Positions 11,381 through 28,630 of a stretch of 32,241 bases of DNA are shown here, piece by piece. Both the position numbers and the translations under genes were made by a program. Position 1 is the stretch's first letter. The number at the start of each line of letters is the position of its first letter. The notes below the pieces were generated by a model. The model saw nothing but the letters and a program-made list of their open reading frames with translations. It was not told the DNA's origin and did not search any database. Source of the stretch: a virus. The stretch spans positions 1 through 32,241 of IMG/VR virus record IMGVR_UViG_3300000236_000003. One strand, written 5' to 3'.

Positions 11381-11416
11381 GCAAAATTAAGAAAGTAATA
11401 CTTCTCAAAAAAGGAC
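11381..11416 (-). promoter_or_regulatory. Structural-block promoter-like motif, copy 1 (weakest)
   Basis: Minus strand GTCCTTTTTTGAG, 15 bases, then AATTTTGC. It matches three better copies at 13716, 17776 and 26807 in both boxes and in spacing. It lies in the 60-bp gap before the 517-aa gene, six bases from its ATG. Confidence 0.5.
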
Positions 11417-11434
11417 AAATCAGAAACGAACAAA

Positions 11435-13258
11435 TCAGAAACGAATTGCTGTTGCCTTAACTACTGAAACTCCATTATTACTCAACTTATATTCCAAGTC
11501 CGTAATGAAATAGGTATTTTCCCCTATTTTATATTTTTTCGTGAAATCGAAATTAAAAATATCTGCCGCATTCATATCCAGGTAGATTGTATATTCAGCA
11601 TCAACATCAAGATACCAAGTTAGAAACTTTTTCCAGCGTTCGTAATAAGACCATTGTGCCGAGTAGCTTATCGTATCTTTTTTATCATCCGGAGCATCGC
11701 CTGACGGAGGAACTCCAAAGAAATACCCGGAAGCTGCGTATGGAATATGTATGAAAGGCAATGCTGTCATATCATTCGAAAAGTGAAACATATACCGTAA
11801 TGAGAAATCGTTATATGGATATTCCGTGCCATTCCGGTTAAGAGCGCCTTGAAAAAAGTTTCCTTTCTGTTTAACTATCGGTAATGCTCTTAGATTCGAT
11901 TGGTTCTGACCGTATAACCAGTGCGATATTGAGCAAGAAAATAGTGGAATTTTCACTTCCAGATTGCCGGAAAACATTCCGTTAGAAATTGCAACATTAC
12001 GAAATTCTTGGAAATTACCTGAACCTTCCGGAAGGACTTGCCATTCTTCGCCTTGACTAAGAATGGAATATATACCGGGCGGATTTTCAACAAAAACAAG
12101 TGTTTTTGTATGATCCATCCGATAAGTGAATCTTGCGAAACCTATGGTATCGTACACTGTATAATTCCCATATACAGGATAATATTCTAACGATGGTAAT
12201 TCAATATGACTATGTTGGGACTGCGAAAAATCAGGATAATTAGATGCAAATGAGTCAGCACTATCACGTTGCACAGAAATTTCCCATCCGTCTGCTTTGC
12301 CTGAAATTTTCTTCGTTGTAGTCTTGACATGTTTCGACGAATAATCGATATAACTTTCTGTCATAATCATATCGTATCTCGAAATTAGTATAGCATGACC
12401 ATGCCGCACATTGAGAAATAAATTCCAAAAATTTTGTATTGACAACAAAAACTCCGTAACGGGTGTACGCGGAACATGATTCTTCGCATTATAGGTTCCG
12501 AAATCTATCTCATGCCTTGCATATACAATTGTATTAACGGTGAATAGAAGTTGTTTTGGAAACCACGTTAGGAATTGATTATCAGAAACCTTAGATTCAT
12601 ATAAGGTTATGAAATTCGATAACACCTTATATAAGACATCATCGACAAAAGGGAATGGCGTAACTGCAACAGGATAGTTATATTTAAAAAAGAATTCATA
12701 AGCTTGTGATTCAATCGAATTCACAGTATTCTGTCTCTCAAACGCATCTTTCCAAACACCGCCTTCAACTGTCTTATAATTTTCATATATAGTGTCCTTA
12801 AAAAAATCTTCGTTCTGAATCGTAGCCAAAACATATCTCTGCGGATACCGCGTTCCGTTTTCCGCGAACGTTGGCAAAATAAATTCGCAGTCGTCGCCAT
12901 AGTCTAAGTCTGTGAGCAGCTTGTCTTTTATTTGGTGATAGAAACCGCCGTTATTCACGAAAATAGTGAACTCAATCGACTTCTGACTAATTTCTTCCGC
13001 ACGCATAATGCCGCGTGCAATCGGAATACCGTGAAAAATTACTTCTGCATCGCCCTCAATAACTTCGTTTTCGTGTTTTTCAGGTCGAAATGCAAACCCA
13101 AAAATACGCTGATTTCGCACCGACAGCGGAGCCGAAACAGGTATAGAATAGCCACCTTCTAATTTGTCGAACGTGAATACATTCCCGTGCTCAACGATAA
13201 TAATTTGAAAATCGTCCGGCAGTTCAATGGGCTGTGAGTTGAAGCGAATTTCGAGCAT
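11435..13258 (-). CDS. Baseplate/tail-hub-like structural protein, 607 aa
   Basis: A large, aromatic-rich protein beginning MLEIRFNSQPIELPDDFQI and ending in strands that read FKKYKIGENTYFIT-like (near 585) and VSVVKATAIRF. This beginning and end, and the length, resemble baseplate or distal-tail proteins of Bacteroidota prophages, but no diagnostic motif is visible. It follows the holin-like gene with a one-base stop/start overlap at 13258. The probable role is tail-tip assembly. Confidence 0.6.
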   Translation of the reverse strand: MLEIRFNSQPIELPDDFQIIIVEHGNVFTFDKLEGGYSIPVSAPLSVRNQRIFGFAFRPEKHENEVIEGDAEVIFHGIPIARGIMRAEEISQKSIEFTIFVNNGGFYHQIKDKLLTDLDYGDDCEFILPTFAENGTRYPQRYVLATIQNEDFFKDTIYENYKTVEGGVWKDAFERQNTVNSIESQAYEFFFKYNYPVAVTPFPFVDDVLYKVLSNFITLYESKVSDNQFLTWFPKQLLFTVNTIVYARHEIDFGTYNAKNHVPRTPVTEFLLSIQNFWNLFLNVRHGHAILISRYDMIMTESYIDYSSKHVKTTTKKISGKADGWEISVQRDSADSFASNYPDFSQSQHSHIELPSLEYYPVYGNYTVYDTIGFARFTYRMDHTKTLVFVENPPGIYSILSQGEEWQVLPEGSGNFQEFRNVAISNGMFSGNLEVKIPLFSCSISHWLYGQNQSNLRALPIVKQKGNFFQGALNRNGTEYPYNDFSLRYMFHFSNDMTALPFIHIPYAASGYFFGVPPSGDAPDDKKDTISYSAQWSYYERWKKFLTWYLDVDAEYTIYLDMNAADIFNFDFTKKYKIGENTYFITDLEYKLSNNGVSVVKATAIRF

Positions 13259-13698
13259 TACTTATGTATATCGTTGAATTTTTTCGAGTAGAATTCCGTT
13301 ATCACTGTTAGCTTTTCGATGCTTGATGCAAGTAAGACGTTCGATTTCGAGAACATATCGAAACTATCTGAAAACTTGGAAATTACCTTAGTATTTTCAG
13401 CAATTACAGATAAGTTCTGCTTCGTATTATCCTCCATGTGGTCAATGAATCGCGTAGAAATAACATTCATTTCCTTGATAGCTTCGTCGCGTTCCTTATA
13501 TGCCCTGTCCATTGCATTCTTATAATCAATATCGCGCTTTTCTTGTAGTTGTTGATCTTTTTTCGCTAGGTAACGAATAATAAAAATCGAAAATGCAAGC
13601 ATAATTCCGAAGGAACCATAATCAAGAAGTATCATTTCGGGTGAAGCAACATCCACAGGAACTTGCAACAGAATTGAAAAGGGAAGATACATCAACAT
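13258..13698 (-). CDS. Holin-like membrane protein with coiled coil, 146 aa
   Basis: An N-terminal hydrophobic stretch is followed by a membrane helix (about 27-45, YGSFGIMLAFSIFIIRYLA) and a charged cytoplasmic-looking region (KKDQQLQEKRDIDYKNAM), then long amphipathic helices. This one-helix-plus-charged-tail form resembles BhlA/XhlA-type holin-associated proteins. It lies between the tape measure and baseplate-like genes, away from the amidase, so a tail role is also possible. A structural-block motif sits 17 bases before its ATG. Confidence 0.5.
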   Translation of the reverse strand: MLMYLPFSILLQVPVDVASPEMILLDYGSFGIMLAFSIFIIRYLAKKDQQLQEKRDIDYKNAMDRAYKERDEAIKEMNVISTRFIDHMEDNTKQNLSVIAENTKVISKFSDSFDMFSKSNVLLASSIEKLTVITEFYSKKFNDIHK

Positions 13699-13715
13699 AA
13701 CTCAATAATTTAGAT

Positions 13716-13751
13716 ACAAATTTCTGACAAAAATCAGAGTGCAAAAAGGAC
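13716..13751 (-). promoter_or_regulatory. Structural-block promoter-like motif, copy 2
   Basis: Minus strand GTCCTTTTTGCAC (13739-13751), 15 bases, AAATTTGT (13716-13723). Both boxes and the spacing are identical to the copy at 17776-17811. It fills the gap between the tape measure stop and the 146-aa gene. Confidence 0.65.
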
Positions 13752-13752
13752 A

Positions 13753-16700
13753 TTACAACACCGAAGTATCGTTTCTTACCTTGTTAATTTTCGCTTCGTA
13801 ATCCTCCAAATCCGTATAGACAATTTGCGCTTTCAGTTTTCCCTTGAAATTTTGTAAGTCCGAACGCATGTTTCCAAGTTCGGAGCGCATCGCACGCAGT
13901 TCGGCAATCATTTCGGAGTTATCCGCTTGCATCGTTGCAGGAACATTCGTTCCTGCGGTTTGGTATTTCCCGCGTGCGCGCTGTGGCACACGCAAACTAC
14001 GCATACTTGATATAGCCCGCGCATGATCCATTACCGTCATGCCGTATCTGTCCGTTTTCGCATTATATAAGGTGCGATTGTCCACCACGAACTCCGGCTC
14101 TTCCGCTACCAATGTAGGCTTGCGCACAATGCCGGTGCTGAGTGTCGGAACCAACGGCGCGGCGTAATGTTTGCCGTCATCCTCACCTACTACGTCATAC
14201 TTTCCGTCGGCGAGCTGCATTACAGCATTGCGCTGATTGGTAGCGGCTAAGGTCGATGCGCCGGCTTGCGCAGTGAGCGCAACATACGCAAGACCACCTG
14301 CAAAAGGATTTGTCAATGCAAGTGCGGCGGCTTCCATGTAGGCTTTGGCGGCTGTTGCAGCAATTTGCGCGAGTGTGATCGCAAATTCAATATCGGCATA
14401 TTTCTTTTGGATTTGCTTTTTCTTCTCCTCATCATCGCCCACACGTTGCAGTTCACGCTCTTTGGCGGCGTTCGTCAATGATTCGCTTGCGCTGATAACT
14501 GCCGAAATTTGCGCCAAGTTTTCGCTGCGGTTTTGCATTTCTTTGTCGTGTGCGGCTTGGGCTTGCGCATCCAATTGCTTCTGATGTTCCGTTCGCAGAA
14601 TGAACAATGCCTGTTCGTATTCCGCTTCTGTCAGTAATTCTTGATCCTTATATGCTTTCAGTTGGTCAAGCTGCTGTTGATATTTGTCGGCATCGGTAAC
14701 AAGTCCGTATTGCTCCCGAATAGATTGAATCTTCTCTGCATGTTCGCGCTCTTTTTCTTCCAGATACGCTTTTTTCTCGGCATCGCGCACGGTTTCAAGG
14801 TCGGAAATAATGCGCAGATATTCCTCACGTCTGGCGACATCTTCGGATGCGAACTTCGTTGCGGCATCAATTTGCTTTTGGTATTTTCCGTCAATTGCCG
14901 CAAGTTCAATTTCGTTCAATCGTTCCTGTTCGGTTACGATGCCGCGTTGCGCGTCGGTTACGAATGCCTCAATATCTTGGTAGCGTTTCAGTAATTCGTC
15001 TTGATATGCCTTTTCATTATCGATACGTTTGGCGGTATATGCGGCATCCAATTGCGAGAGTGCATAATTCTTTTGCTCTTCCGATGCTTTCGCCATCAAT
15101 ATTTTCTCCTGCTCTTTCGTGAACCAGATTTCCAATTCAGCCGCAGCGCGTTTGCGCTCGTCCTCAATTGCATTGATGTGTAATTGTTGAGTAAGCTCGA
15201 AAAGCATACGAGAATCATCGGCTTTGGCTTGGGCGTTTGCGGTTCCGCCTCCTGTCCCATTCCCTGAATTTGCCGCTTCTTCGCTTCCTGTTATAAGCGT
15301 AGAATAAAATTCTCCTATACTTTTTTTCCCATTTTCAAACTCAAGTGCGGCACGTTTTGTATCCGAAACAAGATTCCGAAGATTATCATCAATAATACTA
15401 TATCCTGTCGCAGACTGAACTGATGCGCTTATCTGATCGGCTGTTAAGCCGGCATTTGCCGCAGCTTGAAACCAAGCGAAATTAAACGTATCAAGTCTAT
15501 CAATAACAGATGGTTTAATCGTTTCATTAAAAATTTTAAAAATTTCACGTTGTGACCTTAAGTATTCCTTGTTTATATTTATAAATTCCTCTTTTTGACT
15601 TTCAATCGCAATATTTTGTAATAATGCCTCATTTACTGCTTTTTGAGCTTTTTCAATATCTTCTAATGAAGTCTGCTGTGTAAGAAGATTAGGCAAATAT
15701 GTTTTATATTTTTCGTTAACAGCCTTCAATACATTGTCGTAAGATAGCGTGCCTTTTTCTGTTGTTTTCAGCATCCCAAAAAGAGCATCACTTTCGCCGA
15801 CAACCTCAGCCATTTTTTCAGAATATATATCACCTGCTTTTGCAAGATTAAGCAGAGGTTTTTCAGCTTCTTTAGCCTTTTCACGGAATAATATAAAAGC
15901 CGTAATTGCAGCAGCAACTCCGGCTATTATCAAACCCCAAGGCGTTTTTTTCATTGAAATACTAAGAAGGTCGTTGGCTTTTTTCAAGACTAATGTTGCT
16001 TTTTCTTGCAAAAAAGTTGCAATTGTCGCACCTTTCGTAACGACAGTATAAGCTACAATTCCGGCAACAGCAATTTTCAAATACTTCGCAAACGTGTCCC
16101 AATTTTTTATAATCGTAACCAACACTTTCAACAAATACGAAAACGCATTCGTGCTGAATGTGAGGGCAGGGGCGAGCTGTTCGCCCAGCACAATCGCATT
16201 TTCTTGGGCGCGGTTTTTTGCCTGTTCGAGTTTGGCGGCGTTATTATCTGTGTTAATTGCTGCTTGCTCAATTGCCGTGTTCGTGCCGGTAACGGCTATT
16301 GTCAGTTCATCGTATTTTTGGATGTTGCCAAGCAAAATAGAACCTACCGTAATATTTTCAGCACCGAACAATTTCATTTTCAGCGCATCTTTCTGCGCTT
16401 CCGTGCCTTGTTTTTCAAGTTGTGCGTTCGCTTCTACCAAGGCATCGCGCATGTTGAACGTGCCTGATGCGTAACCCACGCCGGTTTGTTTTAATTTCAA
16501 TAATGCACCACGCAATTTCGTTCCGGCTTCTTCCGAATAGATTTGTTTTTCACCCAAAACCTCCAATGCCGCAACCGTTTCTTCGAGAGTCATGTTGCTT
16601 TCCGATGCCACAGTTCCCACATTCTTGAACGATTCTCCAAGGCTGTCCACCTCCGCACTGCCTGCCTTCGAGCCTGCCGCAAACACATTGATAATACGGC

Positions 16701-17760
16701 GACTTTCATCTGCGCCAAGTCCGAACTGATTCATGGCGGCGGTAACTGCGCCGATTGCCGGGTCGAGTTCCATCTTAGCGGCTTCGGCAAGGATAAGTGC
16801 ATCGTTCGTAACGGTTTTCAATGCCTCTGCGTTTGCGAGCAGTTCCGGTCGTTTCGAGCCTGCGGACGTGAACGCATCCACAATATCTTTGGCGGATTTC
16901 GTTATGCGCACGCCGCCTTCCTGCACAGATGTGCTCATTTCAATCGCGGCATCGCCTAAGCCTTTCACCTTTTCTTCTGAAAGTCCGGTCAATGCCTGCA
17001 AATTATCTTGCGAAGATTCAAACTCGTTGAACGCATCCACCGCTTTGCGTGCCGAGACCACTAATCCGGTAAGTGAACCGATAATGCCGATTGACATTGC
17101 GCCGAAACGGTTGAAATTATCAGCCATCTTGCCGAGTCTATCCTTGAATGTCAGCGTTTCTTTTGCAACGCCGCGCATCTCGTTGCGCACTTGCCCGATG
17201 GTTGTAGATATTTGCGCAAGTTGTTTGGACTTTTGGCGATATTCGTCAGTGTTACGGTTTATGGTTTGAATTTCCTTACTGAGTTGTGCATGTGCGCGGT
17301 TCAAGTCTTTAATGGTTGCGCCTGATAGATTCTTAAGGACTTTACTGTATTCGAAAGTTGCGTTATCAATGGCACGGAGTTGGTTGTTCGTTGCTTTGAG
17401 TTCCGCATTGAGTGCGTTCAATGCCGGGTTTTTCTCTAAGGTACGTAACTCCTTATTGATAGATTTTATTTCGGCATCAGCCTTGGCAAGTTCGGCGTTG
17501 GCGAGCTTCAATGCTTTTTCGTCAATGACATCGGCTTGTGAGAGTTTCACAATTTCGATGCGCAAATCCGATGCGCGTGTTTGTGCAAGTTTCAGCGCCT
17601 TGTTCGCTTCGTCAATCGAACTCTTTTTCAGTAACTGTTCTTTTTGCACTTTCAAAATCTCCTGACGGAGTTCCGAAGCCTTATTCTGTAAGCGTTTTAG
17701 TTCGGCGGCGGCTTCGTCGCCGTTCACCTTCAAATCTACTCTGCCTTGTATATCTGCCAT
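13753..17760 (-). CDS. Phage tail tape measure protein (TP901 family)
   Basis: This 1335-aa protein is the longest in the structural block. Residues about 5-210 are heptad-rich coiled coil. A TP901/PhageMin_Tail core follows from about 215 to 540, with FEYSKVLKNL-like helices, VSARKAVDAFNEFESSQDNL and ITKSAKDIVDAFTSAG, then NVGTVASESNMTLEETVAAL. Two or three hydrophobic segments lie at about 545-640 (TPWGLIIAGVAAAITAFILF). A second coiled coil spans about 870-1130. It sets tail length and is ejected with the DNA; by the usual scaling this length suggests a tail near 200 nm. A structural-block motif lies 15 bases before the ATG. Confidence 0.92.
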   Translation of the reverse strand: MADIQGRVDLKVNGDEAAAELKRLQNKASELRQEILKVQKEQLLKKSSIDEANKALKLAQTRASDLRIEIVKLSQADVIDEKALKLANAELAKADAEIKSINKELRTLEKNPALNALNAELKATNNQLRAIDNATFEYSKVLKNLSGATIKDLNRAHAQLSKEIQTINRNTDEYRQKSKQLAQISTTIGQVRNEMRGVAKETLTFKDRLGKMADNFNRFGAMSIGIIGSLTGLVVSARKAVDAFNEFESSQDNLQALTGLSEEKVKGLGDAAIEMSTSVQEGGVRITKSAKDIVDAFTSAGSKRPELLANAEALKTVTNDALILAEAAKMELDPAIGAVTAAMNQFGLGADESRRIINVFAAGSKAGSAEVDSLGESFKNVGTVASESNMTLEETVAALEVLGEKQIYSEEAGTKLRGALLKLKQTGVGYASGTFNMRDALVEANAQLEKQGTEAQKDALKMKLFGAENITVGSILLGNIQKYDELTIAVTGTNTAIEQAAINTDNNAAKLEQAKNRAQENAIVLGEQLAPALTFSTNAFSYLLKVLVTIIKNWDTFAKYLKIAVAGIVAYTVVTKGATIATFLQEKATLVLKKANDLLSISMKKTPWGLIIAGVAAAITAFILFREKAKEAEKPLLNLAKAGDIYSEKMAEVVGESDALFGMLKTTEKGTLSYDNVLKAVNEKYKTYLPNLLTQQTSLEDIEKAQKAVNEALLQNIAIESQKEEFININKEYLRSQREIFKIFNETIKPSVIDRLDTFNFAWFQAAANAGLTADQISASVQSATGYSIIDDNLRNLVSDTKRAALEFENGKKSIGEFYSTLITGSEEAANSGNGTGGGTANAQAKADDSRMLFELTQQLHINAIEDERKRAAAELEIWFTKEQEKILMAKASEEQKNYALSQLDAAYTAKRIDNEKAYQDELLKRYQDIEAFVTDAQRGIVTEQERLNEIELAAIDGKYQKQIDAATKFASEDVARREEYLRIISDLETVRDAEKKAYLEEKEREHAEKIQSIREQYGLVTDADKYQQQLDQLKAYKDQELLTEAEYEQALFILRTEHQKQLDAQAQAAHDKEMQNRSENLAQISAVISASESLTNAAKERELQRVGDDEEKKKQIQKKYADIEFAITLAQIAATAAKAYMEAAALALTNPFAGGLAYVALTAQAGASTLAATNQRNAVMQLADGKYDVVGEDDGKHYAAPLVPTLSTGIVRKPTLVAEEPEFVVDNRTLYNAKTDRYGMTVMDHARAISSMRSLRVPQRARGKYQTAGTNVPATMQADNSEMIAELRAMRSELGNMRSDLQNFKGKLKAQIVYTDLEDYEAKINKVRNDTSVL

Positions 17761-17775
17761 GATACGAAATTTGAC

Positions 17776-17811
17776 ACAAATTTCCGCTTAAAAACGATGT
17801 GCAAAAAGGAC
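17776..17811 (-). promoter_or_regulatory. Structural-block promoter-like motif, copy 3, with extra half
   Basis: Minus strand GTCCTTTTTGCAC (17799-17811), 15 bases, AAATTTGT (17776-17783), ahead of the tape measure. The downstream half, AAGCGGAAATTTGT, is repeated exactly at 17821-17834, just upstream of the first box. Confidence 0.65.
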
Positions 17812-17872
17812 AAAACGTGAACAAATTTCCGCTTCAACCTGACCTGTGTATTCTGTGTATAGAAAATTCATA

Positions 17873-18934
17873 CTATTTAATCTTTTTAAGATACGTTTCA
17901 ATTTGCATTTTCACTTCGTAGTCTGTGAGTTTCTTGCCTTTCATTTGCGAAAGTAACTTGTTTCGTCCGAAGTCGAAAATCTTCTTGCTATCCTTCTCGG
18001 CATATAGTTCAATAAGTCTCAATAATTCAGTATCAGTCCAAACCTTTGCCGCCGCATCGGTTTTCGTAGTTTCTTTTTTAGCGGTGTTCGTCTGCGGAAT
18101 TACGGTATGCACTACGGATGTTACTTCATTTTTCGCCGAAGTAAGTTCGTCAGAAAATGTGAACCACACCGCACCTGCCGCAACTGCGAAAAATGCCGCC
18201 GCCCAAAGAAGCTTCTTGAATTTGAACCCTACGGACGCGCTCTGTGCTTCCGTAGTGTTTTGCTTAATGCGTTGGTCTTGCTTATCGCTCGAATGTTGCA
18301 GCGTTTGGCGAATCTTTTTCAATTGCGTCAGCTTGTCTTTCGCGTTTCCTTCGGCAATTACGCAAGCATTATCGTAACGCTCGGCGGTTTTGCTTATCGT
18401 TTTTGCCTTCTGCGTGTTCTTGACAATCTTATCAGTAACACGCTCAATATCGTGCATTACAGTTTTGAGTTCGCCCGTGTATTTGTGGCTGACTTTGTTC
18501 CGGTCAATCACATCTTTCCCGACAAATCGCTGATACGGAACCGCAACTTCGCCGATGTCAGTCTGATTTTCTGCCGCCGCGTTTCCGATAACCTTCTGCG
18601 AAGTTTCCGAAAAAACGACGTTAAATTTCTGATATTGCTCCGAAAAATCGCCGATGATTTTCCGATACAGCACCGCTAATTTTCCGATTACTTCCTTATT
18701 TTTCCCGTTATTTTCCGATAATTCAGGCAAAGTTATGAAGTTTTGCGGCGACAGGTCAAACTCCACCGTAGTAGTGGATTCGCCGTATATCTGGAACACC
18801 TGCAATTCTTTTTGCCTCTCTCCTATCATTTTCACAATAACGATGTCGCCCGTGTAGATGTTAATTGCAGGCGTGCCGTGCGTGAATTGGTTCGATAACA
18901 GCACTAATATAGTGCGATATAGTTCAATGCTCAT
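17873..18934 (-). CDS. Single-pass membrane protein with 11-residue repeats, 353 aa
   Basis: I do not recognise the family. Residues 1-70 look globular. Residues about 82-148 contain degenerate repeats of about 11 residues with an IG...YxK pattern (EVIGKLAVLYRK, IIGDFSEQYQKF, DIGEVAVPYQRF). Helical, Lys-rich sequence leads to one membrane helix at about 240-260 (KLLWAAAFFAVAAGAVWFTF), and then a 90-residue C-terminal domain. It lies between the amidase (11-bp overlap) and the tape measure, so it may belong to lysis or to tail assembly. The repeats suggest a fibrous or self-assembling segment. Confidence 0.6.
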   Translation of the reverse strand: MSIELYRTILVLLSNQFTHGTPAINIYTGDIVIVKMIGERQKELQVFQIYGESTTTVEFDLSPQNFITLPELSENNGKNKEVIGKLAVLYRKIIGDFSEQYQKFNVVFSETSQKVIGNAAAENQTDIGEVAVPYQRFVGKDVIDRNKVSHKYTGELKTVMHDIERVTDKIVKNTQKAKTISKTAERYDNACVIAEGNAKDKLTQLKKIRQTLQHSSDKQDQRIKQNTTEAQSASVGFKFKKLLWAAAFFAVAAGAVWFTFSDELTSAKNEVTSVVHTVIPQTNTAKKETTKTDAAAKVWTDTELLRLIELYAEKDSKKIFDFGRNKLLSQMKGKKLTDYEVKMQIETYLKKIK

Positions 18935-19583: not shown

Positions 19584-19945
19584 AATCCGTCTGATATTAT
19601 TGTGTATAGAAAAATAATTGCGCCTATTGCAATTACCCATTTTATAATGATTCCAAATGCAGTTTTCAATGTGCTTGTTGTTACGTCAATTCCTGCATCT
19701 GTTGTCTTTTTGCTGAATCCGAAAAGTAACTTCCATGCACCCCAAACTAACAAAATTCCGAAATCAAGTAACAACATCGGAACTATCAGTAAGAGTTGTA
19801 TTGCCATGAGTAGTCCGCCTTGCCAAGCCTTTCCGCCTTCGCCGTAGAAATCGAACAGTAAGCGGTTCGCCCAGAACGCGCCCCAACGAGTGGGGCGTTT
19901 CTTGATTCTGAACGGAACAATAATTTCTGCCGTGAATGTTTTCAT
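19520..19945 (-). CDS. Two-helix membrane protein of the lysis cluster, 141 aa
   Basis: Two strong membrane segments are visible: about 45-70 (GGLLMAIQLLLIVPMLLLDF and the following residues) and about 98-118 (FGIIIKWVIAIGAIIFLYTI). The N terminus is basic and the C terminus amphipathic. Topology and position fit a holin or lysis-associated protein, but no family motif is evident. The start at 19945 forms a TGATG overlap with the 51-aa gene upstream; a GTG at 19948 is possible. The end overlaps the amidase start by 64 bp, indicating one tightly packed transcript. Confidence 0.65.
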   Translation of the reverse strand: MKTFTAEIIVPFRIKKRPTRWGAFWANRLLFDFYGEGGKAWQGGLLMAIQLLLIVPMLLLDFGILLVWGAWKLLFGFSKKTTDAGIDVTTSTLKTAFGIIIKWVIAIGAIIFLYTIISDGLWKKYSEKLSFYLEQLQSVSF

Positions 19946-20100
19946 CACATTAATTTTGAGATTACAATAACAGCCGAAACAATTGAGAGCACAACTAAGG
20001 TTGGAAATGCAACCTTTTGAGTTTTTGTTTTTGCGCCGATAGTTCGCGCTATGAAATACAACGCACCGATAATATAGATTATGAAAATTGCTTCAAACAT
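19945..20100 (-). CDS. Very small two-helix membrane protein, 51 aa
   Basis: This ORF encodes MFEAIFIIYIIGALYFIART and a second hydrophobic run (PTLVVLSIVSAVIVIS), with a basic KTKTQK loop between them: a helical hairpin. Its start lies three bases after the spanin-like stop and its TGA overlaps the next ATG (TGATG). The tight packing and clean hairpin topology support a real gene. A pinholin or small holin role is plausible from its location but unproven. Confidence 0.65.
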   Translation of the reverse strand: MFEAIFIIYIIGALYFIARTIGAKTKTQKVAFPTLVVLSIVSAVIVISKLM

Positions 20101-20103
20101 AAC

Positions 20104-20385
20104 CTAAAAATTATCCCAAAAACTCGGTGTTTGTTTAGAATTTACTTTGCGAACTTCCTTATAGATAACTTCCTGACCACGTTTCAGCGTATCAGTATCG
20201 AATTTCAGTGTGTCCACATCGGCGGCAACGTCGCGCAGTTCGGTTTTGATGCTGTCTATTTCGGCGCGGAACTCCTTGCGGTAGTCGTGAAACTCATCCT
20301 GTGTTACGGTGTTCTGACTTTTGTAGATATTGTAACCTGCTGCTGCTATCACGATTATTACTACTATTGCTATGACTGTTTTCAT
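20104..20385 (-). CDS. i-spanin-like protein (one membrane helix plus coiled coil), 93 aa
   Basis: An N-terminal membrane helix (KTVIAIVVIIVIAAAGYNIY) is followed by an extended heptad-rich helix (about 30-80; EFRAEIDSIKTEL, then VDTLKFDTDTLKRGQ). This type-II topology with a periplasmic coiled coil is that of Rz-like inner-membrane spanins, which disrupt the outer membrane at lysis. No lipoprotein Rz1 partner with a lipobox is seen nearby or nested in another frame, so the call rests on topology and on clustering with the amidase. Confidence 0.55.
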   Translation of the reverse strand: MKTVIAIVVIIVIAAAGYNIYKSQNTVTQDEFHDYRKEFRAEIDSIKTELRDVAADVDTLKFDTDTLKRGQEVIYKEVRKVNSKQTPSFWDNF

Positions 20386-20651
20386 AATTCTAACTTTAAT
20401 TTTCGATTTATAATTTGTTCGGCTCTTTGGAAGTCCATTTTTGTTGATGCGTAAGTATTAATCGCGTATGTTCCGTAATGACTTTTTTGGTCTTCATACT
20501 CATATTCATTCCCAAATTTATAGATGTGTTTTGCATAGGTTTTCTGGAATGAAAACAGCAAAATAGTATGATGTGTATTCGGAACAAGGCAGTGGTATTC
20601 CATTTGGTATTTCGAGATAGTTACGAAATATGTATCTTCTGTAATAATCAT
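20382..20651 (-). CDS. Hypothetical protein, 89 aa
   Basis: A small protein with ATGA overlaps at both ends, linking the 235-aa membrane protein to the spanin-like gene. It is rich in Tyr and His (TYFVTISKYQMEYHCLVPNT) and probably a single beta-alpha domain; the C terminus is a basic helix (FQRAEQIINRKLKLEL). No signal peptide, no membrane helix, no known motif. Confidence 0.6.
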   Translation of the reverse strand: MIITEDTYFVTISKYQMEYHCLVPNTHHTILLFSFQKTYAKHIYKFGNEYEYEDQKSHYGTYAINTYASTKMDFQRAEQIINRKLKLEL

Positions 20652-21355
20652 AATTCTTGATTTTGTAAGTGATTGAATTTTTCTAAGATTTCATTATCCT
20701 CGGCGGTTCGCGCTTCGGGTTTCATTTTCAGAATGCGCGACTTATTATGTCGCAGCCAACCGTCGTAATACATGCTGTGTGTGCGCTGCATTTCGCTGAG
20801 TTCTTTCCTTGTGAGAAACAAATAACTTCTCAAATCTGTTATTTCGACATTCATTACCTTCAACTTATCAACCTTTGTTGTAACCTGCAAAGCAAGTTCA
20901 GCGGAGTTGCGCACGACTTGGTCGTAGTCGGTTTTCAGAACCATATCGGGGCGAGCTTCGTTATTTATCTGTCCGAGGGAATATGTGATAACCGCCGAGA
21001 ATACAGCATATAACAGTGACAAAATTACAGCTACATAGTTAAGCGTTCCGTCGGCGGCTTGGTCGAGAATATTGATATTCATGCCGAGCAAAACAAGCAG
21101 CGCGTCAAGGGTAGGGAGGATGCGTTTTAGTTGCGCGTGCCCTTGGCGTTGCATCACCACAATAGTAGTGATGCTATACGCCAACGCGCCGATGAATGCA
21201 GGCATCCAATTGGTAAGCGATTCGTTTTGCGATTGCAGAACGTAATGCAATGAGTAGGTATTGATGCCTATCAGTTCAACCATGACGAAAAACAAGGCAT
21301 AACTTACGCCGCTTTCGGACAGAAAAGAATTGTATTTGTTTGCAAACTGTTTCAT
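20648..21355 (-). CDS. Four-helix membrane protein with C-terminal coiled coil, 235 aa
   Basis: Four membrane segments at about 19-40, 50-68, 80-98 and 104-127 (for example YVAVILSLLYAVFSAVITYS) are followed by a cytoplasmic-looking helical region with KVDKLKVMNVEITDLRSYL. No transporter or holin motif is evident. It belongs to the lysis/membrane cluster by ATGA overlaps on both sides. It could be a multi-helix holin or a superinfection-exclusion protein; I cannot choose between them. Confidence 0.62.
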   Translation of the reverse strand: MKQFANKYNSFLSESGVSYALFFVMVELIGINTYSLHYVLQSQNESLTNWMPAFIGALAYSITTIVVMQRQGHAQLKRILPTLDALLVLLGMNINILDQAADGTLNYVAVILSLLYAVFSAVITYSLGQINNEARPDMVLKTDYDQVVRNSAELALQVTTKVDKLKVMNVEITDLRSYLFLTRKELSEMQRTHSMYYDGWLRHNKSRILKMKPEARTAEDNEILEKFNHLQNQEL

Positions 21356-21780
21356 TTGTCTGCCTTAATTTTATGATGTCTCACATTCCTTACTCTGCGC
21401 AGTTCGGGTTGGTTGCAATCTTCGTTATAGCGCAGTTTGTAACGAAGATTGCAATCATCGCATTCAATTGTTGGGTTTTTTTCTATGGCCAAGAAAACTT
21501 CTACTTCTTCCCAAACATTATCCTCATCATCGATTTCGAGAACATAATTCAATTCGCCGCCGCAGGAACAAAATGCAACCAATTCTGCCGAAGATTCACT
21601 GACAAAAAAATCATTTTCGTCCAACAATTTGCCTTCGGTATATTCGTCGTGCATTGCCTCAGCCATTTCGCACAGACGTATTTGTGTGGGGTTGCCCATT
21701 TGTAGCGCAACCGGCTCGCCTTTTTCATCGTAGAATTTGCCGCGTCGCAGCTTCATTCCGTTGTATTCTAACATTGCCAT
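21352..21780 (-). CDS. Zinc-ribbon-like hypothetical protein, 142 aa
   Basis: The N-terminal part is a beta-rich domain (LEYNGMKLRRGKFYDEKGE). C-terminal residues include CSCGGELNYVLEIDDEDNVW and, about 30 residues later, ECDDCNLRYK: paired CxC and CxxC motifs that would bind one zinc ion as a ribbon. It is not a known enzyme type. Neighbouring genes overlap it on both sides (13 bp and ATGA). The second in-frame ATG at 21774 is an alternative start. Confidence 0.62.
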   Translation of the reverse strand: MAMLEYNGMKLRRGKFYDEKGEPVALQMGNPTQIRLCEMAEAMHDEYTEGKLLDENDFFVSESSAELVAFCSCGGELNYVLEIDDEDNVWEEVEVFLAIEKNPTIECDDCNLRYKLRYNEDCNQPELRRVRNVRHHKIKADK

Positions 21781-22001
21781 GCTGAACTAAGTATTAGCGT
21801 TTTGAAGCTCTCGCGGTTGCCGCAATGCGACAAGGTGAACATGCCTTTTATCATGTCCATAATTTCGGAACGAAACGATGAGAGCTGCTCAGATGTGCAG
21901 CGCAACGGCATTACCAATTGAACCATAGGCAGCTCGTTGCAGGTAACGAAAAATACTTCGATGCTGTGCATCGGGCGGATTGGTTTGGTTTGATTATCCA
22001 T
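21768..22001 (-). CDS. Hypothetical protein, 77 aa
   Basis: A small protein reading MDNQTKPIRPMHSIEVFFVT and so on. Strands at the start are followed by a helix (SEQLSSFRSEIMDMIKGMFT). No motif found. Its start shares an eight-base ATGGATAA overlap with the basic 44-aa gene upstream, and its end overlaps the zinc-ribbon gene by 13 bp, which supports translation of all three from one message. Confidence 0.55.
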   Translation of the reverse strand: MDNQTKPIRPMHSIEVFFVTCNELPMVQLVMPLRCTSEQLSSFRSEIMDMIKGMFTLSHCGNRESFKTLILSSAWQC

Positions 22002-22128
22002 TTCTGCGTAATTTTTCTAATAAAACAATTTTATTTCTTCGGTTTGCGCGGTTTACGGCACGGAAAAAAGCAAACCAACGGAAAATGGCAAAGCGCGGGC
22101 GGCTGCCTTCGGAGCTGAGCTTATACAT
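21994..22128 (-). CDS. Very small basic protein, 44 aa
   Basis: This ORF begins MYKLSSEGSRPRFAIFRWFA and continues with VNRANRRNKIVLLEKLRRNG; it is strongly basic (about 11 Arg/Lys). Its start and stop each share an eight-base ATGnATAA overlap with the neighbouring genes, filling an otherwise empty gap exactly. That arrangement is the main evidence. It could bind nucleic acid or lie on a membrane; nothing more can be said. Confidence 0.5.
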   Translation of the reverse strand: MYKLSSEGSRPRFAIFRWFAFFRAVNRANRRNKIVLLEKLRRNG

Positions 22129-22261
22129 AGCACACCTCCTGTTGCATTATAAAAAATACTGCGGCAGCAGCTGCCAAAATTACGGAAACGATTACCGCAC
22201 GAATGAGCGGATTTTCAACATGGGCTTTCGCGCCGTGTTGTACTTGCTGTTTTTGGAACAT
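22121..22261 (-). CDS. Small single-pass membrane protein, 46 aa
   Basis: The protein is MFQKQQVQHGAKAHVENPLI followed by a membrane helix (RAVIVSVILAAAAAVFFIM). It is the first clear gene after the control node. The start at 22261 is chosen because it follows AAATTTTTCAAT, the leader seen at other starts; a frame open from 22318 would run through the hairpin. The first 13 bases of the coding region and the start codon are complementary to the upstream hairpin loop. The role is unknown; the size and position recall the tiny membrane proteins common in Bacteroidota prophages. Confidence 0.6.
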   Translation of the reverse strand: MFQKQQVQHGAKAHVENPLIRAVIVSVILAAAAAVFFIMQQEVCYV

Positions 22262-22351
22262 ATTGAAAAATTTATAAAATAAAAAAGCCATCGGGTTGTT
22301 CCAAAAACAGACTTCCATGCCGAAGCACTTGGTAGATTTTCACCCGATGGC
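22247..22351 (-). promoter_or_regulatory. Terminator-like hairpin with start-codon-complementary loop
   Basis: On the minus strand a 10-bp stem (ACGCCATCGGGT side at 22342-22351, ACCCGATGGC at 22287-22296) encloses 45 bases and is followed by TTTTTTATTTTAT, so it reads as an intrinsic terminator. The last 14 bases of the loop, CTGTTTTTGGAACA (complement of 22297-22310), pair perfectly with TGTTCCAAAAACAG (22247-22260), which covers the start of the 46-aa gene. The element could be a small RNA of about 120 nt beginning at the 22.41-kb promoter, an attenuator, or both. A 66-codon frame (22192-22392) runs through it and could act as a leader ORF. Confidence 0.6.
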
Positions 22352-22409
22352 GTATTGTTAATATTTGAAAATTCAGCGTATGACATAGTCATCTGTATTT
22401 GGAACGCTG

Positions 22410-22440
22410 CAAATGTAACCCTTTTATATAAATCTGCAAA
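22410..22440 (-). promoter_or_regulatory. Bacteroidota-type promoter P2
   Basis: TTTG (22437-22440) and TACATTTG (22410-22417) are 19 bases apart, a full match to the TTTG / TAnnTTTG consensus. Transcription would begin near 22403, about 10 bases before an ATG at 22392 and just ahead of the hairpin element. Confidence 0.75.
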
Positions 22441-22457
22441 ATTATTTTTAAGTTATT

Positions 22458-22484
22458 TATTATTTAGAATAATTCTAAATAATA
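22458..22484. promoter_or_regulatory. 27-bp palindromic operator, second site
   Basis: Thirteen-base arms around one central base, core TTTAGAAT-A-ATTCTAAA, identical except at the centre to the core of the palindrome at 7255-7289. It lies 17 bp upstream of the P2 -33 box and downstream of the P1 start, so one bound dimer could affect both. Confidence 0.78.
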
Positions 22485-22491
22485 TTACCCT

Positions 22492-22522
22492 ACCTGCATT
22501 ATTAAAAAAAACAAATGCAGGT
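22492..22522. repeat. Small inverted repeat between tandem promoters
   Basis: ACCTGCATT (22492-22500) and AATGCAGGT (22514-22522) form a 9-bp stem around an A-rich loop. It would lie in the 5' end of the P1 transcript, between the P1 start and the operator. No T-run follows in the minus direction, so it is not a simple terminator. Confidence 0.5.
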
Positions 22523-22547
22523 TCAACGGATGGATTGTAACTCGCTG

Positions 22548-22579
22548 CAAATATAATTCAAAAAAACACCCCGAACAAA
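22548..22579 (-). promoter_or_regulatory. Bacteroidota-type promoter P1
   Basis: TTTG (22576-22579) and TATATTTG (22548-22555) are 20 bases apart. The -33 box is inside the loop of the terminator of the preceding operon. Transcription would start near 22541. Confidence 0.68.
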
Positions 22580-22590
22580 AATTCGGAGTG
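22560..22590 (-). terminator. Intrinsic terminator after the head-tail genes
   Basis: In the minus direction CACTCCGAA - TTTTTG - TTCGGGGTG - TTTTTT: a 9-bp stem with one G-T pair and a T-run, directly after the stop of the 164-aa gene. Confidence 0.8.
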
Positions 22591-22591
22591 A

Positions 22592-23086
22592 TTAACGCTT
22601 AAAATATGAACGTAAAAAATGCTTCTTAGTTATATATTCTGTCGGCTCTCCTGTGCCGTGCATAAATTCATCCATAATAATTTTCGCGCCTTCTTTGGCA
22701 TACGCCGCTTGCATCAATTCAAGTAAGCGCATCGCTTCGCCATAAAATACGCCGCTGTATAGTCCGCGTATCGGTTTGCGGCGGTTGCCAGTTTGCCGTC
22801 CGTCCTCACGTCTGTTTAGGGTATTGCTTTTCACATCGTCGAAACTCACGCCCTTGCCTACGCCCATTTCTAGCATCCTCAGATAGTATTGAAATGCAAA
22901 CGAAATGAGCGCGGAATTGCCGTCGGCATCCATCGTAACATGCGAATGGAAGCTGTTGAGCAAGTCGCCCGTGTGCATGAGCCTCTTTTTCATGATGGAA
23001 AACTGCCACTTCTCAATGGTAATTTCCGCCCAACGTCGCAAATCAACATCCGATTTCGGACTTAGCCCTATGACGGTAATATCCAT
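22592..23086 (-). CDS. Putative head-tail or neck protein, 164 aa
   Basis: A basic protein whose N-terminal region (WAEITIEKWQFSIMKKRLMH, then TGDLLNSFHSHVTMDADGNS, then FAFQYYLRMLEMGVGKG) resembles small phage neck or tail-completion proteins with a helix-then-sheet pattern, without a firm family match. The C terminus is helical. It is the last gene of the portal operon and is followed at once by a terminator. It overlaps the upstream gene by 19 bp. Confidence 0.6.
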   Translation of the reverse strand: MDITVIGLSPKSDVDLRRWAEITIEKWQFSIMKKRLMHTGDLLNSFHSHVTMDADGNSALISFAFQYYLRMLEMGVGKGVSFDDVKSNTLNRREDGRQTGNRRKPIRGLYSGVFYGEAMRLLELMQAAYAKEGAKIIMDEFMHGTGEPTEYITKKHFLRSYFKR

Positions 23087-23574
23087 GTGTCGGGGTTGTA
23101 AGGTGTACAGCTTGCAAAATCGCGGTAACGCATCATATACATTATGCCGTAATACTTATCGGCAATCATCCCGATGGCGTGCGCCGTGGTTTCATTCAGA
23201 TAGAATTGCACGTTTTGCGGAATCGTGCCTTGCTCGGAATCGTATTCAATTCGTGAAATAATATCCTCGAAAATCGAATTACATTCCGATCGTGCGCCGG
23301 TAATGTCGCCGTCGCGCACACGTTGCAGCAGTATCACCGCACCGGTATAATATCGGTAGCGTTTGTCGTGGTTTGGTCCGTCCCAGCCGCCGTCCTCGTT
23401 CCACTGTGCAATGAGCGCGGTATCTTTCACGTAGCGCATTTTTGCAAGAAAATCGGAATTATCGAAGATAATACGCGACGTGCTGAACTCTTTGAAGAAT
23501 GCAGGCGCATCTTCCGTGTGATATATCTTATTATGCTCGGTGGCAAGCAGTTCGAAATACGCGTTAATGTCCAT
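23068..23574 (-). CDS. Putative morphogenesis protein, 168 aa
   Basis: The start at 23574 (MDINAYFELLATEHNKIYHT) is preferred because it gives a short overlap with the gene upstream; the frame is open to 23637. The middle contains ALIAQWNEDGGWDGPNHDKR and RYYTGAVILLQRVRDGDITG, and the end is Tyr-rich. No known motif. Its position between the portal-like and neck-like genes implies a role in particle assembly. Confidence 0.6.
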   Translation of the reverse strand: MDINAYFELLATEHNKIYHTEDAPAFFKEFSTSRIIFDNSDFLAKMRYVKDTALIAQWNEDGGWDGPNHDKRYRYYTGAVILLQRVRDGDITGARSECNSIFEDIISRIEYDSEQGTIPQNVQFYLNETTAHAIGMIADKYYGIMYMMRYRDFASCTPYNPDTWILPS

Positions 23575-24301
23575 GTGTGCGTTTTTTGAATTCTTCATTT
23601 TCCTTGTGCATCGCCTGTAGGCGAATGAACACTTCAATAATATTAGAGCGTTTCACGAAGTGATTGTCGGCAAGTGCGCCGTCCGCAATGTTGTCCAACA
23701 TCTTGAAATAGTGCAAGTCGTCTCGCACAGGCGCGCCGGATTTCGAGAACAATTCCGGGAATCTGTTTGCTATAACATCGGAGCAAGATGTATAGAACAG
23801 CAACACAGCTTCCTTCGTGTACACGGGCAGTTTCTCAATCAGAATCGCATTCCGTTCGACGTTGTCTGCATTGAACTCGCCTTCATGATACAGCGCAGAC
23901 ACAAAACGATTCAACCAATAGTCCTTATGTGTTTCGGCGAACATGTCCAAATACATGGACGCATAGCCAAAATATTGCTCGAACGTGATGTCCGTCATAC
24001 CGTCGCAAGGTCCTATAAGATCTTTTCTGCGGAACATCAACACAGGGAACTTATTGACGGTCAATTCCGCTTTTTTGTGCAAAAATTCAATCTTTTCGGC
24101 ATATTTCGCCATTTCTACGGCAGGAATCAGATAGAATTTTCGATGCGGAATTTTCAGCGCGTGCCGCAAAAACAGCACATTGAATGCCTCTTTTGTGAGG
24201 TTCAATTTTTTCAGATGCAAAGCATACGACAGTTCCTCTGCCGAAAGTCCGTTCCACTCAACTGGAATCGAACGCTTATAATTCATTTCATACGCCCTCA
24301 T
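23564..24301 (-). CDS. Putative morphogenesis protein, 245 aa
   Basis: A mostly helical protein without recognised domain. It begins MRAYEMNYKRSIPVEWNGLS and includes MTDITFEQYFGYASMYLDMF near the middle. An ATGA overlap joins it to the DUF6712-like gene. Genes at this position in Bacteroidota prophages are usually unnamed structural or assembly genes. It is too short and too helical to look like an HK97-fold capsid protein, but that was not tested by structure. Confidence 0.6.
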   Translation of the reverse strand: MRAYEMNYKRSIPVEWNGLSAEELSYALHLKKLNLTKEAFNVLFLRHALKIPHRKFYLIPAVEMAKYAEKIEFLHKKAELTVNKFPVLMFRRKDLIGPCDGMTDITFEQYFGYASMYLDMFAETHKDYWLNRFVSALYHEGEFNADNVERNAILIEKLPVYTKEAVLLFYTSCSDVIANRFPELFSKSGAPVRDDLHYFKMLDNIADGALADNHFVKRSNIIEVFIRLQAMHKENEEFKKRTHGH

Positions 24302-25185
24302 CGTCCCATCATGAAAAATCCGCTGGCTTCGTCGTTCAACTCAATCACGCTCACGGTTGAGTAGCAGTCAGAGGCTTCATACAGCGGATAGGTTGCGGCA
24401 TTCGTGTTCAGATACGCCTGCAATTCTTCAATCAGGCGGGTATATTCGAGCTTCAATTCGGGCTTATCTTCCATTTTCCACAGTGCGAAATAACATTCCG
24501 CCGGGCGAATGAAGGAGTTGAGCAGCAACTCATTCTCAGGCGAGAGCGTATCCGCAATGATTTGCGCCTTTATTTCGTCGGCAAGTGCCGACGAAATTGT
24601 TTTTTTCACTGTATTTTGCTCAAACATATACAGATGCGAACGCAAATGCAGGAATTTCAGACGCGGAATGTCAATCATCGTAGCCGTTTCAAACTCGGCA
24701 GCATTATTCACATATAACTTTTTGTTGAACGAATATGCGGGAGACAAAACCCACTCCGGGTAGTCGGCAACATAGGTTTCAAGGAATTCAAGCAATTCCT
24801 CAACGCCGTCGTAGCCTGTATTTTCGAGCGAAATTGAAAAGTTTTTCAATCGCCATTCGGCTGCCGGTTCAATGTTTCCGCTCATCGTTACGCCGATGCC
24901 GGTCTCGCCGACATTCAGCGATAATTGCGGCACAGCCAACATATACGCGAAATGTGCGGCAGGGTAGCGCACAACAGGAAGCAAGGCTTCAAGTTCGGGC
25001 GTGATTGCATCTTCGTCGTTTACGGCAGCGCGAAGTAATTCAAGCAAATCTGTTCCGATAATTTCTTTCAGATAGCGCGTTTCGGCTTGTTTGATATACG
25101 GTTGCAGCGTACGAATATCGGAGCTAATATCAACACTGATTTGCTCCTTAATTTCGGCAATAGTTAAGAAAATTGTGCGGCTCAT
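24298..25185 (-). CDS. DUF6712-like head-tail connector protein, 295 aa
   Basis: Two related halves are visible. Each has a helical segment of the connector type: LTIAEIKEQISVDISSDIRT with YIKQAETRYLKEIIG near the N terminus, and ADEIKAQIIADTLSPENELL with FIRPAECYFALWKM near residue 210-245. This matches DUF6712 proteins of Bacteroidota prophages and recalls gp6-type head-tail connectors. ATGA overlaps link it to the portal-like gene upstream and the 245-aa gene downstream. The family name is from memory; the connector role is inference. Confidence 0.68.
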   Translation of the reverse strand: MSRTIFLTIAEIKEQISVDISSDIRTLQPYIKQAETRYLKEIIGTDLLELLRAAVNDEDAITPELEALLPVVRYPAAHFAYMLAVPQLSLNVGETGIGVTMSGNIEPAAEWRLKNFSISLENTGYDGVEELLEFLETYVADYPEWVLSPAYSFNKKLYVNNAAEFETATMIDIPRLKFLHLRSHLYMFEQNTVKKTISSALADEIKAQIIADTLSPENELLLNSFIRPAECYFALWKMEDKPELKLEYTRLIEELQAYLNTNAATYPLYEASDCYSTVSVIELNDEASGFFMMGR

Positions 25186-26561
25186 ACTTGTGCGGATTTG
25201 TCGATTTCGCCGTTGGTATCCAACGTGGTCAGGAAAATATCAGGAATTGAAAATACAATCTCAGGCGACCATTTGTTTATCTGTTTGACCAGATACAGCG
25301 GTTTCAAGATTTGGTCTCGAACGCGTTTCTGCAAACTCTGTGCAATACGTAACAGTTCGCGCTTGTCAGAACCTGACAGATTGGATGTAGTTTTGCCGGG
25401 TATAGTTCCGATGAGCGACGGATGCACACGCATGGCGTAAGCAATCATTGCAGAGGCTTCGTGCGAATCGTCAATATATTCGCCGCCAATTTTCTTATCA
25501 ATGACATGAATCTTAATATCAGGAATTTCAACCTTGCCGTCGGGCGTGGATTTGAAGTACGTTATCATGGATTTGCCCGCTTTTTCTGCGCCTTTCAAGA
25601 ACTCATTCAGATTGTCGAGTTCTTTTTTCACGCGCTCTTCCTGCCCTTTCTTTGTTGTAATGCCTTCTTTGGCGAATATTTTCGGGAAATATTGTTCGTT
25701 AATTTCAATATGATACGCAATATATAAGCTGTTAAGCATGAATTGCTTTTTGAATTCCGGAATTTTGTTCGCAAATTCCATCCAACCGGATTCAATTACA
25801 GAATACCAATATGGCTTCGTGTAGTATGTTCGTCCGGGCGAAGGCAAGCGAACAGGAAGAATATACCGGAATTTCTTTTCATCCTTAGTTTTGCCGGCAT
25901 CATTCGGTCGGCGACCGATACGAATTTCAAGTTCTTTGGCGGCATTTTTCGCCCAAATTACAGGTGTAATTGTAACCTCAGTTTCCTTCGGTTTTTTTGG
26001 CCACAGCGCAGAATAGAAATGATTTTCAACAATGCCGGTATCAAGATTTGCAGTTTCCCAACGCGAAAAATACGCCTCTTTTGCCTCCATCGAAACAACG
26101 CGACGACTGCCTGGGTCATTCATATCGAGAATGATTTCAACGAAACCGTTGTAGAAAAAGTTAATGTCCGTAATCAATTCAGACATGAATGTGTTCATAT
26201 CGTTATCTTGAAAAAACTGCTCAACAGCAGCATATATGCCTTGTTTTTCTTGCTGAGTAGCTTCACGGAATTCGCCGTTTTCATCCATTACGCCGAACTT
26301 CACGCCTGCGCCGTAAGCAATATCAATGCGCAATTCCATACTACCGGAGCCGACAGGATTCTTCCCGAGCGTATCGGTGATGTATCTGGGTAAGTCATTG
26401 TCCGAGCCCCACGGCACAGCACCGCGATATTTCTCATTGACCGAAATAGGCTTATCCGGTTCCGTGAAATAATCTTTCGAAGCGAATGTAACCGCCGCAC
26501 GTGCGCCGAGCAAGTAACTTGCCGAAAACGGCACAAGTAATTCAAACTTTTCTTCTTTCAT
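25182..26561 (-). CDS. Portal-like protein, 459 aa
   Basis: The order of features resembles phage portals: an N-terminal WGSDNDLPRYITDTL, a membrane-ring region near residue 150 (ITDINFFYNGFVEIILDMND, like the portal NAY/NGF strand), a long basic middle with LNEFLKGAEKAGKSMITYFK, and a C-terminal HPSLIGTIPGKTTSNLSGSD followed by KRELLRIAQSLQKRVRDQIL, where portals carry the clip and crown helices. Portals form the DNA gate at one capsid vertex. It is the second gene of the structural block (ATGA overlap with the 81-aa gene). No terminase lies beside it, which is unusual. Confidence 0.7.
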   Translation of the reverse strand: MKEEKFELLVPFSASYLLGARAAVTFASKDYFTEPDKPISVNEKYRGAVPWGSDNDLPRYITDTLGKNPVGSGSMELRIDIAYGAGVKFGVMDENGEFREATQQEKQGIYAAVEQFFQDNDMNTFMSELITDINFFYNGFVEIILDMNDPGSRRVVSMEAKEAYFSRWETANLDTGIVENHFYSALWPKKPKETEVTITPVIWAKNAAKELEIRIGRRPNDAGKTKDEKKFRYILPVRLPSPGRTYYTKPYWYSVIESGWMEFANKIPEFKKQFMLNSLYIAYHIEINEQYFPKIFAKEGITTKKGQEERVKKELDNLNEFLKGAEKAGKSMITYFKSTPDGKVEIPDIKIHVIDKKIGGEYIDDSHEASAMIAYAMRVHPSLIGTIPGKTTSNLSGSDKRELLRIAQSLQKRVRDQILKPLYLVKQINKWSPEIVFSIPDIFLTTLDTNGEIDKSAQV

Positions 26562-26803
26562 ACAAATATTTCTTCAGAATCAATATGCGTGAGTAATACG
26601 AAATAGCACCAACGAATTTGCCCGCTGTCTAACGATTTCAGATTCATTTTCTGCTTTTCCTTATACGAGCTTGTAACAACTGCCTTCGTCATGTGCACAG
26701 TATAACCGCCTTCGCGTTTCTTCTTGGCTGTGCCGTGCGCTACGAATGTGAAATCGTGCGGCTGTCCGTTGTGTGCGAGTTCGATTGCTTCTGCTAATAA
26801 CAT
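26558..26803 (-). CDS. Small protein opening the structural operon, 81 aa
   Basis: The protein starts MLLAEAIELAHNGQPHDFTF and has a strand-rich middle (GYTVHMTKAVVTSSYKEKQK). No known domain. It is the first gene of the structural block, has an ATGA overlap with the portal-like gene, and its ATG lies three bases from the structural-block motif. If that motif is a promoter, the mRNA would be leaderless or translation would start further in. Confidence 0.55.
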   Translation of the reverse strand: MLLAEAIELAHNGQPHDFTFVAHGTAKKKREGGYTVHMTKAVVTSSYKEKQKMNLKSLDSGQIRWCYFVLLTHIDSEEIFV

Positions 26804-26806
26804 AGT

Positions 26807-26842
26807 GCAAATTTCCGCAAAATACGCCGCGTGCGAAAGGAC
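26807..26842 (-). promoter_or_regulatory. Structural-block promoter-like motif, copy 4
   Basis: Minus strand GTCCTTTCGCAC (26831-26842), 16 bases, AAATTTGC (26807-26814). One base shorter in the first box and one longer in the spacer than copies 2 and 3, so the overall distance is conserved. It starts the whole structural operon, directly after the terminator of the HTH gene. Confidence 0.6.
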
Positions 26843-26874
26843 AAAAAAAAGCTCCCGACATTACTATCGGGAGC
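26843..26874 (-). terminator. Intrinsic terminator after the small HTH gene
   Basis: In the minus direction GCTCCCGA - eight bases - TCGGGAGC followed by eight T. Perfect 8-bp GC-rich stem. The T-run merges with the first box of the structural-block motif. Confidence 0.88.
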
Positions 26875-27289: not shown

Positions 27290-27320
27290 GATTGAAAAAT
27301 TTGATTTTTTAAATACTTAA

Positions 27321-27352
27321 CAAAGGTAAGGTTTATTATCCAAGCGCGCAAA
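27321..27352 (-). promoter_or_regulatory. Bacteroidota-type promoter for the TTG ORF and HTH gene
   Basis: TTTG (27349-27352), 20 bases, TACCTTTG (27321-27328). A full consensus match. The TTG start is 32 bases beyond the inner edge of the -7 box. Confidence 0.85.
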
Positions 27353-27424
27353 TATTTGAGTGTTCATTTTCAATGAATTTTAAAATAATTTCTAAACTAT
27401 TGAATACCAATAAGATAGAAATCT

Positions 27425-28598: not shown

Positions 28599-28630
28599 GA
28601 TTGAAAAAAATCTATATATAAAATATGTAA

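Follow-up and report, generated by a model that had tools for sequence, protein, structure and literature searches.

A putative late promoter of related tailed phages of Bacteroidota and its candidate phage activator

The stretch of viral DNA analysed here (the window, 32,241 nt in length) does not cover a complete phage genome: between its two ends it lacks about 10 kb that is present in the related contig 322 of G003 (27.8-37.7 kb). Its structural block lies on the minus strand and includes genes for a portal protein and a tape measure protein, together with predicted promoters at four gene starts (Table 1).

Putative promoter units in the window

Copies of a two-box motif had been predicted at the starts of the 81-aa gene, the tape measure gene, the 146-aa gene and the 517-aa gene, and this is borne out. 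TGTCC-N27-TTTG has exactly four matches in the window, all on the minus strand and each at one of these starts, compared with a mean of 0.41 and a maximum of two in shuffled versions of the window. The early genes were expected to lack the motif; no further match is found in the window, and a host-type promoter precedes, for example, the gene at 28578.

The details of the original prediction are altered in several respects. The two boxes are real, but the first was over-specified at GCAC: the 13-mer GTCCTTTTTGCAC is exact at sites 2 and 3 only, site 1 reads GTCCTTTCGCAC, site 4 is without GCAC, and the T before GTCC belongs to the motif. The spacing, given as 15 or 16 bases, is identical (27 nt at four of four sites) when counted from TGTCC to TTTG. 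The second box was said to lack the TA of a -7 element; this does not hold for site 4, which has the complete host box TAATTTTG, while sites 1-3 (GAAATTTG) keep only the A and have one mismatch.

TTTG is followed by the ATG after 4, 16, 18 and 7 nt at sites 1 to 4, respectively. Two of the copies had been proposed to give leaderless mRNAs. At promoter 1, the ATG of the 81-aa gene coincides with the inferred +1, which is the leaderless register, whereas a 3-nt leader is predicted for promoter 4.

Two near-identical contigs retain the sites of the window. The site orthologous to promoter 1 is at 1601 in contig 322 of G003, and promoter 4 is present in relatives in a form one base shorter. Loss of the motif from relatives with the same gene order, named in advance as an observation that would speak against the prediction, was looked for and not found.

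A second AAGCGGAAATTTGT, 45 nt upstream of promoter 2's own copy, duplicates the -7 region; there is no TGTCC box at the right distance, and the duplication of the promoter is thus partial. Elsewhere in the window, a 196-nt direct repeat (83%) lies on either side of a 288-aa pentapeptide-repeat gene, both copies containing a canonical host promoter that ends in TACCTTTG. A host-type promoter, TTG-N-TACATTTG, is located within the late block ahead of a 65/66-aa ORF, which is possibly a separately expressed extra gene. A short ORF on the strand opposite to both late and early genes resembles, by eye, the C-terminal end of a tyrosine recombinase.

Table 1. Coordinates of genes and predicted elements in the window, and of hairpin-spacer promoters in other phages
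Feature	Coordinates	Strand	Remarks
Late promoter 1 (putative)	26808-26843	-	36-nt unit, 5' to 3' 26843-26808, TGTCCTTTCGCACGCGGCGTATTTTGCGGAAATTTG; TGTCCTTT at -40 to -33 ... GGAAATTTG
Late promoter 2 (putative)	17777-17812	-	Unit 17812-17777, TGTCCTTTTTGCACATCGTTTTTAAGCGGAAATTTG; upstream of tape measure gene; kept in G003 contig 322 at 10769
Late promoter 3 (putative)	13717-13752	-	Unit 13752-13717, TGTCCTTTTTGCACTCTGATTTTTGTCAGAAATTTG; upstream of 146-aa gene; kept in G001 and G003
Late promoter 4 (putative)	11382-11417	-	Unit 11417-11382, TGTCCTTTTTTGAGAAGTATTACTTTCTTAATTTTG; upstream of 517-aa gene; perfect -7 box
Intrinsic terminator	26851-26874	-	GCTCCCGATAGTAATGTCGGGAGC + T8; strong; ends directly at promoter 1
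Second AAGCGGAAATTTGT	17821-17834	-	
81-aa gene	26558-26803	-	First in portal operon; predicted leaderless
Portal protein gene	25182-26561	-	
Tape measure protein gene	13753-17760	-	Downstream of promoter 2
146-aa gene	13258-13698	-	Downstream of promoter 3; putatively holin-like (label of the original prediction)
517-aa structural-block gene	9821-11374	-	Downstream of promoter 4
196-nt direct repeat	27295-27490 and 28605-28800		
Host-type promoter in late block	22410-22439		
Recombinase-like short ORF	7750-8013		
170-aa protein gene	6110-6622		DnaA C-terminal helix-turn-helix (HTH)
Hairpin-spacer promoters	G010, 26387; G011, 24920; MT835542, 29602; G410, 25049; G434, 22174; G414, 23235		G010 position on late strand

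Anatomy and distribution of the unit

The anatomy of the unit was derived from 135 non-redundant sites, in which TGTCC and TTTG are fixed by selection. Its consensus is TGTCCTTT followed by a host-type TAnnTTTG; the trailing GCAC is not conserved. TTT follows TGTCC at 95-100% of sites. The fifth base after TTTG is an A in 71%, and taking this base as +1 places TGTCCTTT at -40 to -33, TAnnTTTG at -12 to -5, and the TTT at the position of the host -33 box, where a G is present in only 7%. The first two positions of the -7 box are T in 80% and A in 95%, values that are partly a product of selection, since sites from the viral scan with TGTCCTTT-N20-TAnnTTTG were preselected for TAnn; among sites not selected for TA, the A is found in 32 of 35 and the T in 21 of 35. 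In flavobacterial relatives, including Polaribacter phage Leef_1, TGTCCTTT is kept 40 nt before the ATG and the -7 box is weaker.

The distance from TTTG to the start codon has a register peak at TTTG-N4-ATG, with the ATG at the inferred +1 in 30 of 151 sites, so that the corresponding mRNAs are predicted to be leaderless. The sharpness of the peak favours the proposal of leaderless starts. In Bacteroides thetaiotaomicron, about 3.7% of 5' UTRs are shorter than 10 nt (PMC7366714).

The spacer may also contain a terminator hairpin: a stem is present in 14 of the 135 sites, compared with 5.4 in shuffles. In some phages (Table 1) the spacer is a perfect terminator hairpin whose T-run merges into the -7 box (e.g., TGTCCTTTATAGCCCGCTCTCCGCGGGCTATTTTTG).

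About 50 distantly related phages of Bacteroidota carry the motif on the late strand with its spacing unchanged. A DNA-level phage search gave no match, a scan with the single portal sequence yielded no confirmed relatives, and a first viral scan with a long form of the motif gave one true relative, besides an unrelated match in four copies. A portal profile (A1) recovered relatives at 28-47% identity from bacterial genomes and IMG/VR. In six virus records found by portal similarity, a search open to 16 spacings gave 13 matches to TGTCCTTT...TTTG, all of one length, and in the pooled portal relatives TGTCC-N27-TTTG occurs 39 times, against about four at each other spacing. In 26 virus records found by the motif, nearly all matches are TGTCCTTT-N24-TTTG on one strand, with up to seven per phage. 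The TGTCCTTT-N20-TAnnTTTG scan of the viral collection gave at least 120 stretches, the majority located immediately before an ORF. When 17 spacings were compared among the matches listed, N20 to TAnnTTTG accounted for 13 sites, eight with an ATG-initiated ORF just downstream, against 3-10 sites at each of the other spacings, with such an ORF in one of about 103 altogether.

Strand and position are also constrained. At a position weight matrix score of 15 or more, 126 sites lie on the late strand and three on the opposite strand. Sites stand at operon heads in the relatives, as in the window: 18 of 28 records have a site no more than 1.5 kb upstream of the portal gene, and for the tape measure gene the figure is 21 of 28 (ORFs were called mechanically, and many records are fragments). 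The portal family is common to 25 of the 25 motif records compared, which indicates one large phage lineage. Across 395 Bacteroidota genomes the motif is not enriched and is rarer than a reversed control. A late promoter that needs a phage factor, as originally predicted, is the best explanation, given that spacing, strand and gene position are kept over very distant relatives. The assignment of the unit to the promoter class is well supported by sequence comparison.

A candidate activator family

An unannotated family of proteins of about 155-190 aa, with a predicted C-terminal HTH, is present in 21 of 21 whole motif phages. By all-against-all comparison and iterative profiles over whole records, it is the only small non-structural family that common. 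In the annotated gene order of Bacteroides phage BT-TP2 and Porphyromonas gingivalis phage 017a, its gene separates the early genes from those for the head protease and capsid, and in five phages it ends 320-560 nt ahead of the first site. Some phages, G010 among them, have no strong site between this gene and the capsid genes, which would then need read-through or a weaker variant of the promoter. The region upstream of the candidate gene itself carries a TGTCC-type promoter in 0 of 25 cases and a host-type promoter in many. Family members in motif-bearing phages include BT-TP2 gp8, annotated as a 'transcriptional regulator', and Leef_1 gene 39; their role is given by annotation only. The sites of BT-TP2 are at 10591, 17977 and 25811.

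Both near-identical relatives of the window carry the gene. The protein of these near relatives is encoded at 29047-29520 of contig 322 of G003, with E 2e-14 to a profile built without them. The gene is absent from the window because the contig lacks some 10 kb of its genome, and in the phage of the window it would lie in that missing part.

The candidate matches no fitting family in Pfam or PHROG and has no significant relative in the PDB by sequence. In the AlphaFold model (pLDDT 90), the C-terminal part forms a three-helix unit whose last helix is long and basic; the protein of the near relative is modelled poorly (pLDDT 65). No PDB entry matches the fold significantly (Foldseek E of 2 or more, Z below 5), and its best viral structure match is the Leef_1 homologue (TM 0.72). 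Residues 94-150 are matched weakly, in most cases by HTH DNA-binding domains, and it is only the nature of these matches that points to DNA binding.

The association was also examined in reverse, starting from the protein. At the 74 loci found in this way, the N27 spacing stands out on the late strand, with 29 against about 2.5, and has no peak on the other strand; about 19 of 30 further whole records have sites. Phages 11b, RAP44, p00 and P2559S, and the first 50 kb each of B40-8, crAss001 and DAC15, have neither the candidate protein nor the promoter. Phage 6H encodes a divergent homologue of the candidate at 31125-31676 (E 4e-9) and has no TGTCCTTT promoter. A divergent box in 6H, TGTCTTAA, is found only before four late-strand genes, one of which is the small gene preceding a portal-sized gene; its count (four, with 3.2 expected from base composition) is not above expectation, and only its placement before genes is notable. 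Protein and motif both follow one lineage, which has portal and adaptor just as universally, so that the activator cannot be identified from co-occurrence alone. The candidate family is the most likely late activator, and would work with host RNA polymerase.

Alternative readings, proposed mechanism and significance

The simplest alternative is that these are ordinary host promoters that need no phage factor. Bacteroides sigma-ABfr promoters have TTTG at -33 and TAnnTTTG at -7 (PMC7366714), and the phage unit resembles them in the sequence and place of its -7 box, with TA at most sites, and in the TTT at the -33 place, so that TGTCC could be a strong variant of the -33 region. It differs in the near absence of the -33 G, in the extension of the box by TGTCC, in having one dominant spacing where that of the host is variable (PMC7366714), and in its placement at phage late operons, being absent from the early genes and not enriched in host genomes; this alternative is considered unlikely. 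A phage-encoded sigma factor, with TGTCCTTT for its -35 element and the second box for its -10 element, which the original prediction had offered beside an activator, would account for two boxes at fixed spacing, a typical feature of sigma recognition. However, the -7 box is still of the host sigma-ABfr type, and none of 30 motif phages has a match to a sigma region-2 domain, against positive results for 10 of 14 control genomes; region-4-like matches are weak and not general. A phage sigma factor is thus rejected as very improbable, and an activator fits better.

The activator might also be another phage protein, with the 155-aa family in a different role. Of 30 motif phages, 13 have stretches that weakly resemble Sigma70_r4_2, and the window encodes a protein with the DnaA C-terminal HTH (Table 1), but neither is general: region 4 is above the cut-off in 0 of 30 records, and the DnaA-type protein, rejected as the activator, is found in only 4 of 35. 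There is little probability in this reading. Frames of about 190 aa with a weak region-4-like HTH, below the cut-off, were recorded at G417:6875, G441:1356, G428:4093, G449:38989 and G414:1494. Finally, a conserved operon-head element other than a promoter (an RNA processing, packaging or recombination site) could be imagined, given that some copies overlap a terminator hairpin; yet a transcription start agrees with the -7 box, with A as the +1 base, with the register of the ATG and with placement on one strand where operons begin, and an element of another kind is hardly credible.

The reading preferred here is that the unit is probably a late promoter that a large clade of tailed phages of Bacteroidota has in common, with the 155-190 aa family the most likely phage activator. 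Host RNA polymerase with its primary sigma factor would read TAnnTTTG, the host -33 box being replaced by the 8-bp phage element TGTCCTTT at a fixed spacing. The activator, with an alpha/beta N-terminal part and a basic C-terminal HTH, would be encoded at the early/late junction and expressed from an ordinary host-type promoter. It would bind TGTCC, either next to sigma region 4 or instead of it, and turn on the head, portal, tape-measure and tail operons. Transcription would begin 5 nt past TTTG, on the ATG itself at about one fifth of sites. The host-type -7 box and the lack of a sigma region 2 argue for host holoenzyme with an activator, and the overlap of the box with the -33 position makes it probable that sigma region 4 is replaced or covered by the activator, as it is by MotA and AsiA in T4.

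Late activators are known from other temperate phages: Mu C and P2 Ogr are small proteins that turn on structural operons. Ltr of Staphylococcus aureus phi13 is reported to be another (PMC13123087). The candidate resembles these three as a small phage protein proposed to turn on structural operons; it differs in host polymerase and box, and no sequence match to them was seen. The middle promoters of T4, where MotA and AsiA appropriate sigma (PMC6755090), are also alike in that a host-type downstream box is retained and a short phage box at fixed spacing replaces the -35. The T4 box is centred on -30, while that of the motif phages lies at -40 to -33 and serves structural genes, and the candidate has no Pfam match pointing to MotA at E of 1 or less. 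The parallel is a likeness of working, not membership.

In the literature searched, which included few subscription papers, no TGTCC promoter, candidate protein, or late promoter or activator of a Bacteroidota phage is described. A fuller picture can be put forward tentatively, at slightly less than even confidence: a clade-wide late regulon in which a previously undescribed activator family displaces or substitutes for sigma region 4 at TGTCC, the box co-evolves with the protein, and late mRNAs are systematically leaderless, which is rare in this phylum. The promoter consensus would mark late operons in gut, oral and marine phages, and the candidate regulator is available in a cultured phage (BT-TP2 gp8). 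The unit might find use in Bacteroides genetics as a promoter that is phage-specific and probably inducible, and it may help to model how leaderless mRNAs are translated in hosts where Shine-Dalgarno sequences are not used.
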